Positions 12,201 to 14,833 of a DNA stretch of 20,934 bases are shown here, piece by piece. Every line of letters begins with the position of its first letter. Within the stretch, counting starts at the first letter, position 1. Source of the DNA: a virus; the IMG/VR virus record IMGVR_UViG_3300042507_006025, positions 1 to 20,934 of that record; one strand, written 5' to 3'. The position numbers were made by a program, and so were the translations under genes. Under the pieces are notes generated by a model. It was given only the letters and a program-made list of their open reading frames with translations. It made no database searches and was not told the origin of the DNA.

Positions 12201-13006
12201 ACGAATAATTTCGCATAGAGTGACTCTGTCTTTTGTTTATGGTCAGGAGATTCAATACCGGAAAGAATATTCTTTGTTTGTTTACGGGCAGATTCTGCCG
12301 CATAGGCATTGAAAGAATTTCTACCGGAAGATATGTTTCGTAGAGCATCCTTTTTGGCTTTCTCATACATTTGCTTTTTGATGTCTCTGGGGAAGTCGAC
12401 CTTTCCAAAATATTTAAGGATCTTTCCGAAGTACATTGGTATCTCCTGGTATTCGGAGTAAACGGCTTCACCTGATTCTTGTAATTTTTGTTTGGCATCA
12501 TTCATTGTTGCCATTGCGTGAATACGAGCTCTGTGGTTTAGTTCATCAATTTCCTGCCATGTTTTTGTCCTGGTGTTATCTACTTTGGAAAGTTTCTCCA
12601 TGAGTAGTTTGTTTCTGTACCTGGAATAGTTGTTTAGGACATCAGCTACCAGTGTGATTGACATTCTTTTGTATTTGGATAGTTCGAATTCAAACTTTTT
12701 CATGGCAGCACATTCGAAGGCTAATGGTATTTCATTTGGTCCTAATGTCATAAAGTTTTTTTCGATGAAGTAGAAACAATCTTTTATAATTTGTCTGTCA
12801 GTATCAGGTTCATATCCAAGATAGTTTTGACATACAGAGATTAGGCTACCCATGATGAAGTCCATGTTCACTTCTCTGTCAGTATCTTTGATTTGATTGG
12901 TTGAACCGATATACATTTCTTCAAAAGTATTTCTTCTGGTTACGCTGTTCGTCATCTCTAATTTGCTGTTTGAGTTGTTCAATTGTAGATCTTGTTCGTT
13001 GTTCAT
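12170..13006 (-). CDS. Helicase-loader-like/replication accessory protein (hypothetical)
   Basis: A long frame from 13102 overlaps the initiator gene; I place the start at 13006 (MNNEQ), where TAAACAA precedes the ATG by 7 bases. The alternative at 12955 (MTNSV) overlaps less. The unique region is helical: CFYFIEKNFMTLGPNEIPLAFECAA, then KYKRMSITLVADVLNNYSRYRNK, then a coiled region and a basic C-terminus. This resembles the second gene that often follows replication initiators in Bacteroidota prophages; a loader role analogous to lambda P is inferred from position. No Walker motifs are present. Its end overlaps the glucosaminidase gene by 31 bases. Confidence 0.6.
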   Translation of the reverse strand: MNNEQDLQLNNSNSKLEMTNSVTRRNTFEEMYIGSTNQIKDTDREVNMDFIMGSLISVCQNYLGYEPDTDRQIIKDCFYFIEKNFMTLGPNEIPLAFECAAMKKFEFELSKYKRMSITLVADVLNNYSRYRNKLLMEKLSKVDNTRTKTWQEIDELNHRARIHAMATMNDAKQKLQESGEAVYSEYQEIPMYFGKILKYFGKVDFPRDIKKQMYEKAKKDALRNISSGRNSFNAYAAESARKQTKNILSGIESPDHKQKTESLYAKLFVWYYITGSTY

Positions 13007-13880
13007 AAGATAGTTGTTTAAAGTTATTTGAATATTGATTTTGAGCTGTTGTAGTTTGTTGAAGGTATTTGTTGAAATTGGAATTTCTGAATAGTGTTTC
13101 AATCACATAGTGTTCTTTCATTTTTGGATCTGAAAGCATTTGGGATTTAAAAGTTAGCATATTTTTTACTTCTTCCATAGAAACATCTGGATTATCTTTC
13201 AATGCCAGGGATATGGATTTGTATGGTTGGTATTTGACAAACTTGTCATATGCTGTTGGTATTCTTGGTTTGGTATTGGTTATGGAATAATAAAAATCCA
13301 TTATTTCAACAAACTGAAAATAGAAGGGCAAATCTGTGATTTGTTTTTCCTTTCTCTCTTTATTATTATTATTTAAATTATCATTTATTATATTATCTAT
13401 CTTAATATTATTATTATTTATATTATAGTTCGGATATACATCCGTAGGGGTTCGGATTTCTATCCGTAGGGGGTTCGGGTTTTCATCCGTAGGGGGTTCG
13501 GATGTGTGTCCGTAGGGGTATGGGTTTTTATCCGTAGGTTCGGATGAGAATCCGTAGGTTAAAATTGAAAATATTTCACTTATTGAATAGTAAGAAGCTC
13601 CCATCTTTTGATTGTCCTGGTGTGGATTAATTATACCCATTTCAGACATTCTTTTTAATCTTCGATACACAGTATCCTTTTTCATTTTCAACAATGGCAA
13701 GTTATCAATGATAAGTTTATATGAGATCCAAAAATAATCTTCATTATCGAATGTAACTTTTTTCACATCCTTTGACTTTATCCATTGGGATATGAAAGAC
13801 AATATGTGAGCATCATAGATATCTATGTCCATTCCACTTTCAATTATTGCCTTTTGATTAATAAATAAATTGTATCTCAT
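12921..13880 (-). CDS. Replication initiator (lambda O-like/winged-helix) protein
   Basis: 319 residues. The N-terminal part (about 1-115) has helices YDAHILSFISQWI and a winged-helix-like pattern in NLPLLKMKKDTVYRRLKRMSEMGIINP (59-85), as in phage replication initiators of the O/DnaD type. Residues ~118-155 are Pro/Thr/Asn-rich and encoded by six DNA iterons. An Asn/Ile-rich stretch (~156-177) is encoded by a highly AT-rich tract. The C-terminal ~140 residues are helical (MEEVKNMLTFKSQM). Overall plan and embedded origin resemble lambda O. The gene starts only 5 bases after the terminator at 13885-13940, so its expression needs readthrough or an alternative structure. Confidence 0.75.
   Translation of the reverse strand: MRYNLFINQKAIIESGMDIDIYDAHILSFISQWIKSKDVKKVTFDNEDYFWISYKLIIDNLPLLKMKKDTVYRRLKRMSEMGIINPHQDNQKMGASYYSISEIFSILTYGFSSEPTDKNPYPYGHTSEPPTDENPNPLRIEIRTPTDVYPNYNINNNNIKIDNIINDNLNNNNKERKEKQITDLPFYFQFVEIMDFYYSITNTKPRIPTAYDKFVKYQPYKSISLALKDNPDVSMEEVKNMLTFKSQMLSDPKMKEHYVIETLFRNSNFNKYLQQTTTAQNQYSNNFKQLSYEQRTRSTIEQLKQQIRDDEQRNQKKYF
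13359..13427. other. AT-rich DNA-unwinding-element candidate next to iterons
   Basis: 69 bases with only three C and no G on the plus strand (66 A/T), directly beside the iterons and inside the initiator gene, where it encodes Asn/Ile/Asp/Lys codons (IDNIINDNLNNNN). Placement next to initiator-binding repeats matches the unwinding region of lambdoid origins. Confidence 0.6.
13429..13558 (-). repeat. Six iterons inside the initiator gene, candidate replication origin
   Basis: Six copies of CTACGGA-N5-AYCCGAA (19 bases, minus strand) separated by 1-4 C bases give a 20-23-base period, about two helical turns. Minus-strand starts of the core are 13557, 13537, 13515, 13492, 13469 and 13447. CTACGGA is invariant; the right half is ATCCGAA or ACCCGAA in five, ACCCATA in one. 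Each unit has inverted CGGA/TCCG halves. The core is read in all three codon frames (Tyr-Gly, Thr-Asp, Leu-Arg), so the conservation is at DNA level. Location with the AT-rich tract in an O-like gene predicts the phage origin. Confidence 0.78.
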
Positions 13881-13884
13881 AAAA

Positions 13885-13940
13885 TTAAAAAAGCCTCCAA
13901 AAGTGCGTGTAGTAGAGAATACACAACACCTCGAAGGCTT
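13885..13940 (-). terminator. Long terminator hairpin just before the initiator gene
   Basis: Minus-strand RNA: AAGCCUUC (13940-13933) pairs with GGAGGCUU (13898-13891); GUGUUGUGUA (13929-13920) pairs with UACACGCAC (13911-13903) with one bulged U; GAG can pair with U residues between. The loop is UUCUCUAC (13919-13912). A U-rich tail follows (UUUUUU AAUUUU), and the initiator ATG is five bases further. The wobble pairs are GU only in minus-strand RNA, supporting that direction. Confidence 0.75.
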
Positions 13941-13999
13941 GTAATTGGGTTTATGTTGTTGGAAAGTTGGTTCTCGTTCTCTACTCCAAGAATCAACTT
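13885..13999 (-). ncRNA. Candidate ~115-nt two-hairpin small RNA/leader with complementary apical loops
   Basis: Hairpin 1: AAGUUG-A-UUCUUG (13999-13987), loop GAGUAGAGAA (13986-13977), CGAGAA-C-CAACUU (13976-13964); 12 pairs with one A·C mismatch and one GU. Hairpin 2 is the terminator at 13891-13940 with loop UUCUCUAC. GUAGAGAA in loop 1 is complementary to all eight bases of loop 2, giving a potential kissing-loop complex. A Bacteroidota-type promoter at 14005-14035 would start transcription at the first hairpin. No ORF is seen in the interval. It may be a small RNA, an attenuator of the initiator gene, or both; the structure is hand-derived. Confidence 0.6.
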
Positions 14000-14004
14000 C
14001 AATG

Positions 14005-14035
14005 CTAATATAACTTATTTATTCTTAACAGGAAA
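14005..14035 (-). promoter_or_regulatory. Candidate promoter for the two-hairpin RNA
   Basis: Minus-strand reading: TTTC (14035-14032), 19-base spacer, TATATTAG (14012-14005). The -7 box is TAnnTTTG with one change (A for the second of the three T) and the spacing equals that at 16172-16202. The -33 overlaps the end of the AP2 gene. Predicted transcription start (~14001-13998) is at the first hairpin. Confidence 0.45.
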
Positions 14036-14833
14036 GTATTTCACATAATATTTCAAGTGCTTCCCTTCCACATTTATTCTTTCAACTAAAAAGTCACATC
14101 CGCTCTTTTCTTCCCTGACAAATGTTCCAATCATATTTCTAATGTCCAGTGTCGATAACATATTCATCTTGAAATGTAATTCATCCAGGACAGCATAGGG
14201 AGTGATGGTAACAATGTCAAAAGTGTCCATCATTTCTTCCATGTTGACAACAATAAGACGATCAATGTATCTGTCTGGTTGGAATGACTGTTCTTTTTTT
14301 TCAATTGCTGTTCTTACTTTCTGTAATTCATTGCTCAAAACATGCTTTGATACAATGGCATCTCTTGCCTCTTTGTTTATGTACATAGTATTGCCTTTTT
14401 TCTGTTCTTTAATGGCTTCTTCCATCGTGTTGTAAGTGCCAATATACTCACCTAATCTGTTATTCACACAAACATATGCCTGATATTTGTTATTGTGCTT
14501 GTTGATATATATCCCCTTTGGTAAATTGGCATTAAACAAATCTTTCGTTTTAGGCATTTTTTTGCTGTGGTGTTGGTTATGTATCACCTTTTTGAATTTA
14601 GTGTCGCAAAACGGATTTTCTGCCGTTTCTATGGTGTTTTTTCTGTTAATCTTTTGTGGTTTAAACTTTGGATTTATTCCCAATGCTCGATATAAAGCTT
14701 CAAGAGCTGCCTTTGCTTCATCTAAAGAGTAGTGAGTGCCACCATAATGGTCAACACCATTCTTGACAACATTGACATAATACTTTCCATTTCTTACTTT
14801 GATGTTTCTTGGGATTTCACAATTGTTTTTCAT
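14015..14833 (-). CDS. Tandem AP2-like DNA-binding protein
   Basis: 272 residues. Two AP2/ERF-like repeats are visible: residues ~8-51 (PRNIKVRNGKYYVNVVKNG ... YGGTHYSLDEAKAALEALYRA) and ~105-147 (PKGIYINKHNNKYQAYVCVN ... YIGTYNTMEEAIKEQK). Each has the three-strand G-x-Y/W pattern followed by 'G-T-[FY]-x-[ST]-x-E-E-A' and a helix. The C-terminal half is alpha/beta with no motif that I know. No nuclease motif is seen, so it is not an AP2-HNH homing enzyme. It may bind DNA or act as a regulator. It lies immediately before the two-hairpin RNA and the initiator gene, and overlaps the upstream gene by 17 bases. Confidence 0.7.
   Translation of the reverse strand: MKNNCEIPRNIKVRNGKYYVNVVKNGVDHYGGTHYSLDEAKAALEALYRALGINPKFKPQKINRKNTIETAENPFCDTKFKKVIHNQHHSKKMPKTKDLFNANLPKGIYINKHNNKYQAYVCVNNRLGEYIGTYNTMEEAIKEQKKGNTMYINKEARDAIVSKHVLSNELQKVRTAIEKKEQSFQPDRYIDRLIVVNMEEMMDTFDIVTITPYAVLDELHFKMNMLSTLDIRNMIGTFVREEKSGCDFLVERINVEGKHLKYYVKYFPVKNK

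Follow-up and report, generated by a model that had tools for sequence, protein, structure and literature searches.

A recurrent kissing-hairpin RNA that ends in an intrinsic terminator precedes phage replication initiator genes and may attenuate their transcription

What occupies the non-coding gap in front of the replication initiator gene of this virus, and could it govern expression of that gene? The window, by which we mean the whole 20,934-base IMG/VR viral record analysed here, carries almost all of its coding genes on the minus strand, and the gap (13881-14014) is flanked by an AP2/HNH-like gene and the initiator gene:

14015-14833: AP2/HNH-like gene upstream of the gap (PHROG HNH families)
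12921-13880, minus strand: replication initiator, the putatively regulated gene (phrog_428 replication initiation protein, E = 8.5e-15)
13428-13558, minus strand: iteron-like self-similar repeats TACGGATnnnnATCCGAA inside the initiator gene, a probable origin

The initiator has a lambda-O-like layout of N-terminal winged helix, iterons and C-terminal domain, and the starts of its relatives align at the ATG of the window (13880). On the minus strand, the gap and its upstream edge contain the following elements:

14005-14035, minus strand: promoter-like TTTC-N19-TATATTAG of the Bacteroidetes type (TTTG/TAnnTTTG), with a -7 box matching at 5/6 positions and an imperfect -33 box
13963-14000, minus strand: hairpin 1, with a stem of 7 + 6 bp and a loop of 10 nt
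13977-13984, minus strand: kissing sequence GUAGAGAA of loop 1, the Watson-Crick complement of loop 2 in 9/9 sequences
13941-13962, minus strand: single-stranded linker, of which the ACCCAAUUAC portion is invariant in nine close relatives
13890-13940, minus strand: hairpin 2, an intrinsic terminator stem containing G-U pairs
13912-13919, minus strand: kissing sequence UUCUCUAC of loop 2
13887-13892, minus strand: U-tract of the terminator (6 U), 6 nt before the initiator ATG

The initial annotation had placed loop 1 (GAGUAGAGAA) at 13986-13977 and loop 2 (UUCUCUAC) at 13919-13912 of the minus strand, had proposed that all of loop 2 is complementary to loop 1, and had put a terminator just ahead of the initiator ATG. 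Its loop coordinates are correct, GUAGAGAA and UUCUCUAC are exactly complementary over 8 bp within the loops (9 bp if A13985 is counted), and the U-tract (13892-13887) is indeed followed by 6 nt and then the ATG at 13880. On the minus strand, the 134-nt RNA spanning the gap has a folding energy of -36.4 kcal/mol (z = -4.5), which none of 200 shuffles equalled, and the plus-strand fold is much weaker (z = -1.9). The 5' arm of the terminator (13927-13937 in the window, and also in L012 and L016) can itself form a tiny CCU..AGG hairpin, possible in both sequence variants, CCUUCGAGG and CCUUCUUAGG, which may explain the G-U pairs of the terminator.

Both hairpins are retained in eight related contigs, giving nine sequences with the window. 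One of these contigs, L003, is 98% identical to the window and departs from it at just three places, namely hairpin 1, the top of hairpin 2, and the initiator N-terminal domain with its iterons (TACGGATnnnnATCCGAA repeats exchanged for GCACGAATATGTGC repeats); the linker and terminator base are unchanged, and the loops of L003, GUAGGAG/CUCCUAC, keep their complementarity. Seven further contigs, found through DNA pattern and protein scans, have flanks 88-99% alike and downstream regions 94-99% alike, and the swap among them between GUAGGAG/CUCCUAC and GUAGCAG/CUGCUAC is a coordinated double change. Since the upstream gene is AP2-like in the window and L003 and a different 149-aa gene in the other close relatives while the element is kept, the element tracks the initiator and not its upstream neighbour. 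The initiators themselves are mosaic, with two N-terminal and two C-terminal types occurring in all four combinations among closely related phages and each N-terminal type bringing its own in-gene iterons, as seen by comparing:

window, 12921-13880: initiator
L003, 5956-6861: initiator
L006, 12096-12938: initiator
L008, 12019-12906: initiator

In a structural alignment of the nine sequences (A7), the structure including the kissing helix pairs in 98.5% of cells, compared with at most 51% in slid controls, and double changes were observed in ten pairs against 3.1 in shuffles (0/500). The kissing helix is Watson-Crick in 63/63 cells and has three covarying columns in which both sides change at once, one pair being seen as A-U, G-C and C-G; in hairpin 1, stem letters differ across three sub-lineages with pairing kept, and 5/13 pairs show double changes. 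We caution that the nine aligned sequences represent only about three independent sub-lineages. A lack of covarying changes in the stems or the loop-loop pairing was named at the outset as a result that would refute the proposal, which thus survived this test, and the covariance-model search of related phages suggested alongside it, run with a model built from relatives only (window excluded), recovered the window at 93 bits (E about 6e-18), with matches occurring once per contig.

Stems of the nine sequences contain 47 G-U cells that can be read only on the minus strand vs 2 of the opposite kind, which bears out the earlier claim that the wobble pairs exist only in minus-strand RNA and shows that the RNA is read on that strand. 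The same asymmetry weighs against the idea that the inverted repeats act as DNA, whether bound by the initiator or a different protein or serving as an origin or priming structure. Although the element adjoins origin-like iterons, those iterons have other sequences, and we regard a DNA-level role as very improbable. Initiator binding sites in particular were rejected: the loop code is independent of initiator domain types, the loop letters ignoring the N-terminal domain swap and GUAGGAG occurring with both N-terminal types.

Scanning with the N-terminal initiator domain yielded six further phages, five with domain identities of 28-43% and the sixth, L049, with 33% identity to the L041 domain. 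Five much more distant phages have the same architecture before the initiator operon, with unrelated kissing sequences of 7-9 bp, and all five elements end in a terminator:

L040, directly before the initiator: GUAGGAC/GUCCUAC, recovered by the covariance model as well (E = 4e-6)
L041, directly before the initiator: CGGGAAG/CUUCCCG
L049, directly before the initiator: GCAUCUCAC/GUGAGAUGC
L042, one gene further upstream, before a 95-aa ORF leading into the initiator: GUAGGAG/CUCCUAC
L044, one gene further upstream, before a KilA-N gene leading into the initiator: GUCAGAGC/GCUCUGAC

A U-rich tail is present in L003, L006-L008, L012-L016, L040-L042, L044 and L049, and in most lineages the start codon lies 6-14 nt past the U-tract. 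A total of 444 kb, with both strands counted, held 242 terminator-like hairpins; a loop-complementary hairpin lies upstream of 15, of which 9 belong to initiator operons and are on the coding strand. Mere chance complementarity beside an ordinary terminator is not inconceivable for any single site, as 7-mer loop complementarity arises randomly at 0.66% of terminators (loop-shuffled expectation), but covariation together with five independent distant lineages refutes it in practice, and we give it virtually no credence. Whole-contig scans of six of these phages gave strong matches only at the initiator; a minus-strand match near 1384 of L040 consists of coding repeats of a leucine-rich-repeat gene and is not the element. 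That phage gene (991-1623, about 210 aa) stands a few genes upstream of the initiator. No element was found in the whole genomes of Elizabethkingia phage TCUEAP2 and Flavobacterium phages 1/32 and tant8-1, or, within initiator-flanking regions only, in Campylobacter phage DA10, Pseudoalteromonas phage Y7, Mannheimia phage 587AP2 and the fecal phage MT836526.

Where the RNA begins was judged by comparison. The promoter guessed in the initial annotation gains support from a perfect -7 box (TAnnTTTG) 10-19 nt upstream of hairpin 1 in 4/9 lineages (L003, L041, L042 and L044; 0/2000 draws with as many), although the copy in the window has one mismatch and a poor -33 box. Because this recurrence exceeds chance, the RNA probably starts at hairpin 1 as a transcript of its own, a comparative inference made without 5'-end mapping. 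A good Bacteroidetes-type promoter, TTG-N19-TATATTTG, at 16201-16172 follows closely on a terminator-like hairpin (16270-16231) and heads the early operon, that of the ERF recombinase; it could also feed the initiator region, which counts against an attenuator with its own promoter. Judged by promoters and relatives, the viruses carrying the element are probably phages of Bacteroidota.

A promoter (identified by sequence comparison) and a terminator of its own, as well as an unpaired linker (ACCCAAUUAC) that is invariant in nine close relatives, would also suit a stable two-hairpin small RNA with some other purpose, such as a host target, the initiator being fed by leaky readthrough. We consider this improbable: the linker is not conserved in distant relatives, whereas the position before the initiator operon is, and the short distance from U-tract to start codon in most lineages points to control in cis.

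We lean instead, with no great confidence and without RNA data, towards the element being a 5'-leader transcription attenuator of the phage replication operon. With the U-tract within a few bases of the start codon, we infer that the initiator must come from readthrough. Transcription is inferred to start beside hairpin 1, which would fold first; once the 5' arm of hairpin 2 and its loop have been transcribed, loop 2 could pair with loop 1, a pairing that covariation demonstrates. Folding of the nascent chain predicts that, while the 3' arm of the terminator has yet to be made, hairpin 1 is fully formed and loop 2 unpaired. The kissing loops and short linker would then resist closing of the base of hairpin 2, and polymerase would read into the initiator gene; were the kiss to fail or be disrupted, the terminator would close, a small RNA of about 110-120 nt would be released and the initiator would not be made. 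These two outcomes are inferred from geometry and from the precedent of the guanidine-IV riboswitch. The initial annotation knew of no described RNA class of this form, but guanidine-IV riboswitches have it, consisting of two hairpins with loop-loop pairing of which the second is a terminator (PMC7736828, PMC9788692, PMC11611296). There, rigid kissing hairpins are proposed to stretch the linker so that outer terminator pairs do not form (PMC7736828), and P2, as it grows, shortens the linker in competition with the kissing loop (PMC11611296).

Linkers of 14-23 nt can hardly span a roughly coaxial kissing complex with a closed terminator base, and in L041 this is impossible; by our linker-stretch estimate, in 7/8 lineages the kiss is either ruled out while the terminator is closed or carries a penalty of about 7-14 kcal/mol, compared with 2-3 kcal/mol when the terminator base is open. 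The coaxial geometry is a crude model. Given this strain and the same proposal for guanidine-IV, kissing is favoured as the read-through state; both the trigger and the on/off sign are inferred, not shown. The sign is not fixed because in L042, the exception, a 32-nt linker would tolerate the kiss and the closed terminator together. It also counts against the attenuator that no ligand, protein or other trigger was identified, and its further weak points are the reliance on metagenomic contigs alone, the absence of RNA evidence, the inferred sign of regulation and the small number of independent lineages.

Could the same loops act between molecules? The terminated small RNA might kiss a nascent leader of the same type and promote its termination, so that replication is held in check or phages of that type are shut out, much as in immunity by P4 CI RNA or with the incompatibility RNAs of plasmids. 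In favour of this, closely related phages differ in their loop letters, with the change made in both loops; cognate loops pair at -8.9 to -10 kcal/mol vs -2.9 to -5.7 kcal/mol for non-cognate ones; and in P4, RNA-driven early termination that involves self-complementary segments of the leader blocks the phage's own replication genes (PMC4825925). However, proximity favours intramolecular pairing, and there is no sign of lysogeny, since neither integrase nor resolvase (PF00589, PF00239) was found in 13 contigs of up to 44.8 kb, which may be fragments. That absence speaks against a lysogenic-immunity version and not against copy control or exclusion; because the loops are type-specific and non-cognate loops pair poorly, action in trans is not excluded, and we hold it to be unlikely without dismissing it. 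Under the attenuator reading, too, the released RNA has the same two loops and, speculatively, could disrupt kissing in subsequent transcripts and thereby limit replication type-specifically. Self-recognition in its full form, in which terminated leader RNA shuts off replication operons of the same loop code in trans and spares other codes, is a still more doubtful proposition; if true, the kissing loops would define types for copy control or exclusion that are coded in RNA and diverge among phages otherwise nearly identical.

Set against known systems, the element resembles guanidine-IV (the GGAM-1/mepA motif) and its Gd4v variant in its two hairpins with loop-loop pairing and in a 3' hairpin that is an intrinsic (Rho-independent) terminator shortly before a start codon. 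Unlike them, it lacks conserved loop nucleotides for a ligand pocket, its letters differing completely between lineages, and it precedes a replication initiator and not sugE, MATE or other guanidine-related or transport genes. In P4, transcription of the replication genes is stopped by CI RNA that pairs with segments of the leader, and control of the P4/IsrK type, by RNA-governed premature termination, leaves a short terminated RNA and a longer readthrough mRNA (PMC4825925). As in P4 CI RNA immunity (seqA/seqC) and the related Gifsy-1 IsrK leader, complementary segments lie on the same leader upstream of a replication operon; in contrast to P4, the element here pairs through compact kissing loops, one of them in the terminator hairpin, and shows no integrase (13 contigs, maybe fragments) and no evidence of processing. 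Plasmid Rep leaders (the IncI/IncB repZ loop pseudoknot and pT181-type antisense attenuation) have in common with the element both loop pairing upstream of an initiator gene and specificity loops that change fast. The element differs from them in that its control site is a terminator and not a ribosome site, it belongs to a phage and not a plasmid, and no antisense-strand promoter was found (a consensus scan only, for TTG-N-TAnnTTTG on the plus strand near 13880-14010). It shares with intrinsic-terminator attenuators generally a stable hairpin and then a U-tract in the leader of the regulated gene. The initiator is like lambda O in its N-terminal DNA-binding domain, in-gene iterons and exchangeable C-terminal domain, and lambda is not known to have such a leader in front of O.

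The combination of kissing hairpins and a terminator thus has a precedent in guanidine-IV; the literature searched describes neither an element of this form that lacks a conserved pocket, nor a kissing code that is freely exchanged, nor a location ahead of phage replication initiators. Rfam gave no match at gathering thresholds or at E 10, chance matches being far below the cut-offs (presence of the guanidine-IV model was unconfirmed), and searches for DNA similarity in phage and plasmid collections returned nothing. Such searches miss the element because its architecture is conserved with almost no conserved sequence. The single match in a pattern scan of genome contigs was a chance one inside a GGDEF gene. 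A structured RNA that recurs before the replication initiators of otherwise distant phages implies, if the inferred mechanism holds, that termination within a leader RNA decides whether the phage commits to replication; it would be a clean example of a terminator acted on directly by kissing loops, with no evident ligand pocket, and its orthogonal loop codes could supply ready-made parts for synthetic transcription switches.

In L044 a KilA-N domain gene (1848-2498; Pfam E = 3e-17) separates the kissing element from the initiator, and an antirepressor-like gene may therefore be under the control of the element as well. L043 was left out of the count of distant elements: its loops CGGUCAU/AUGACCG (1749-1909) are complementary, there is no U-tract, and a second CGGTCAT copy stands just before the initiator ATG, an arrangement that is possibly a translational variant of the switch.
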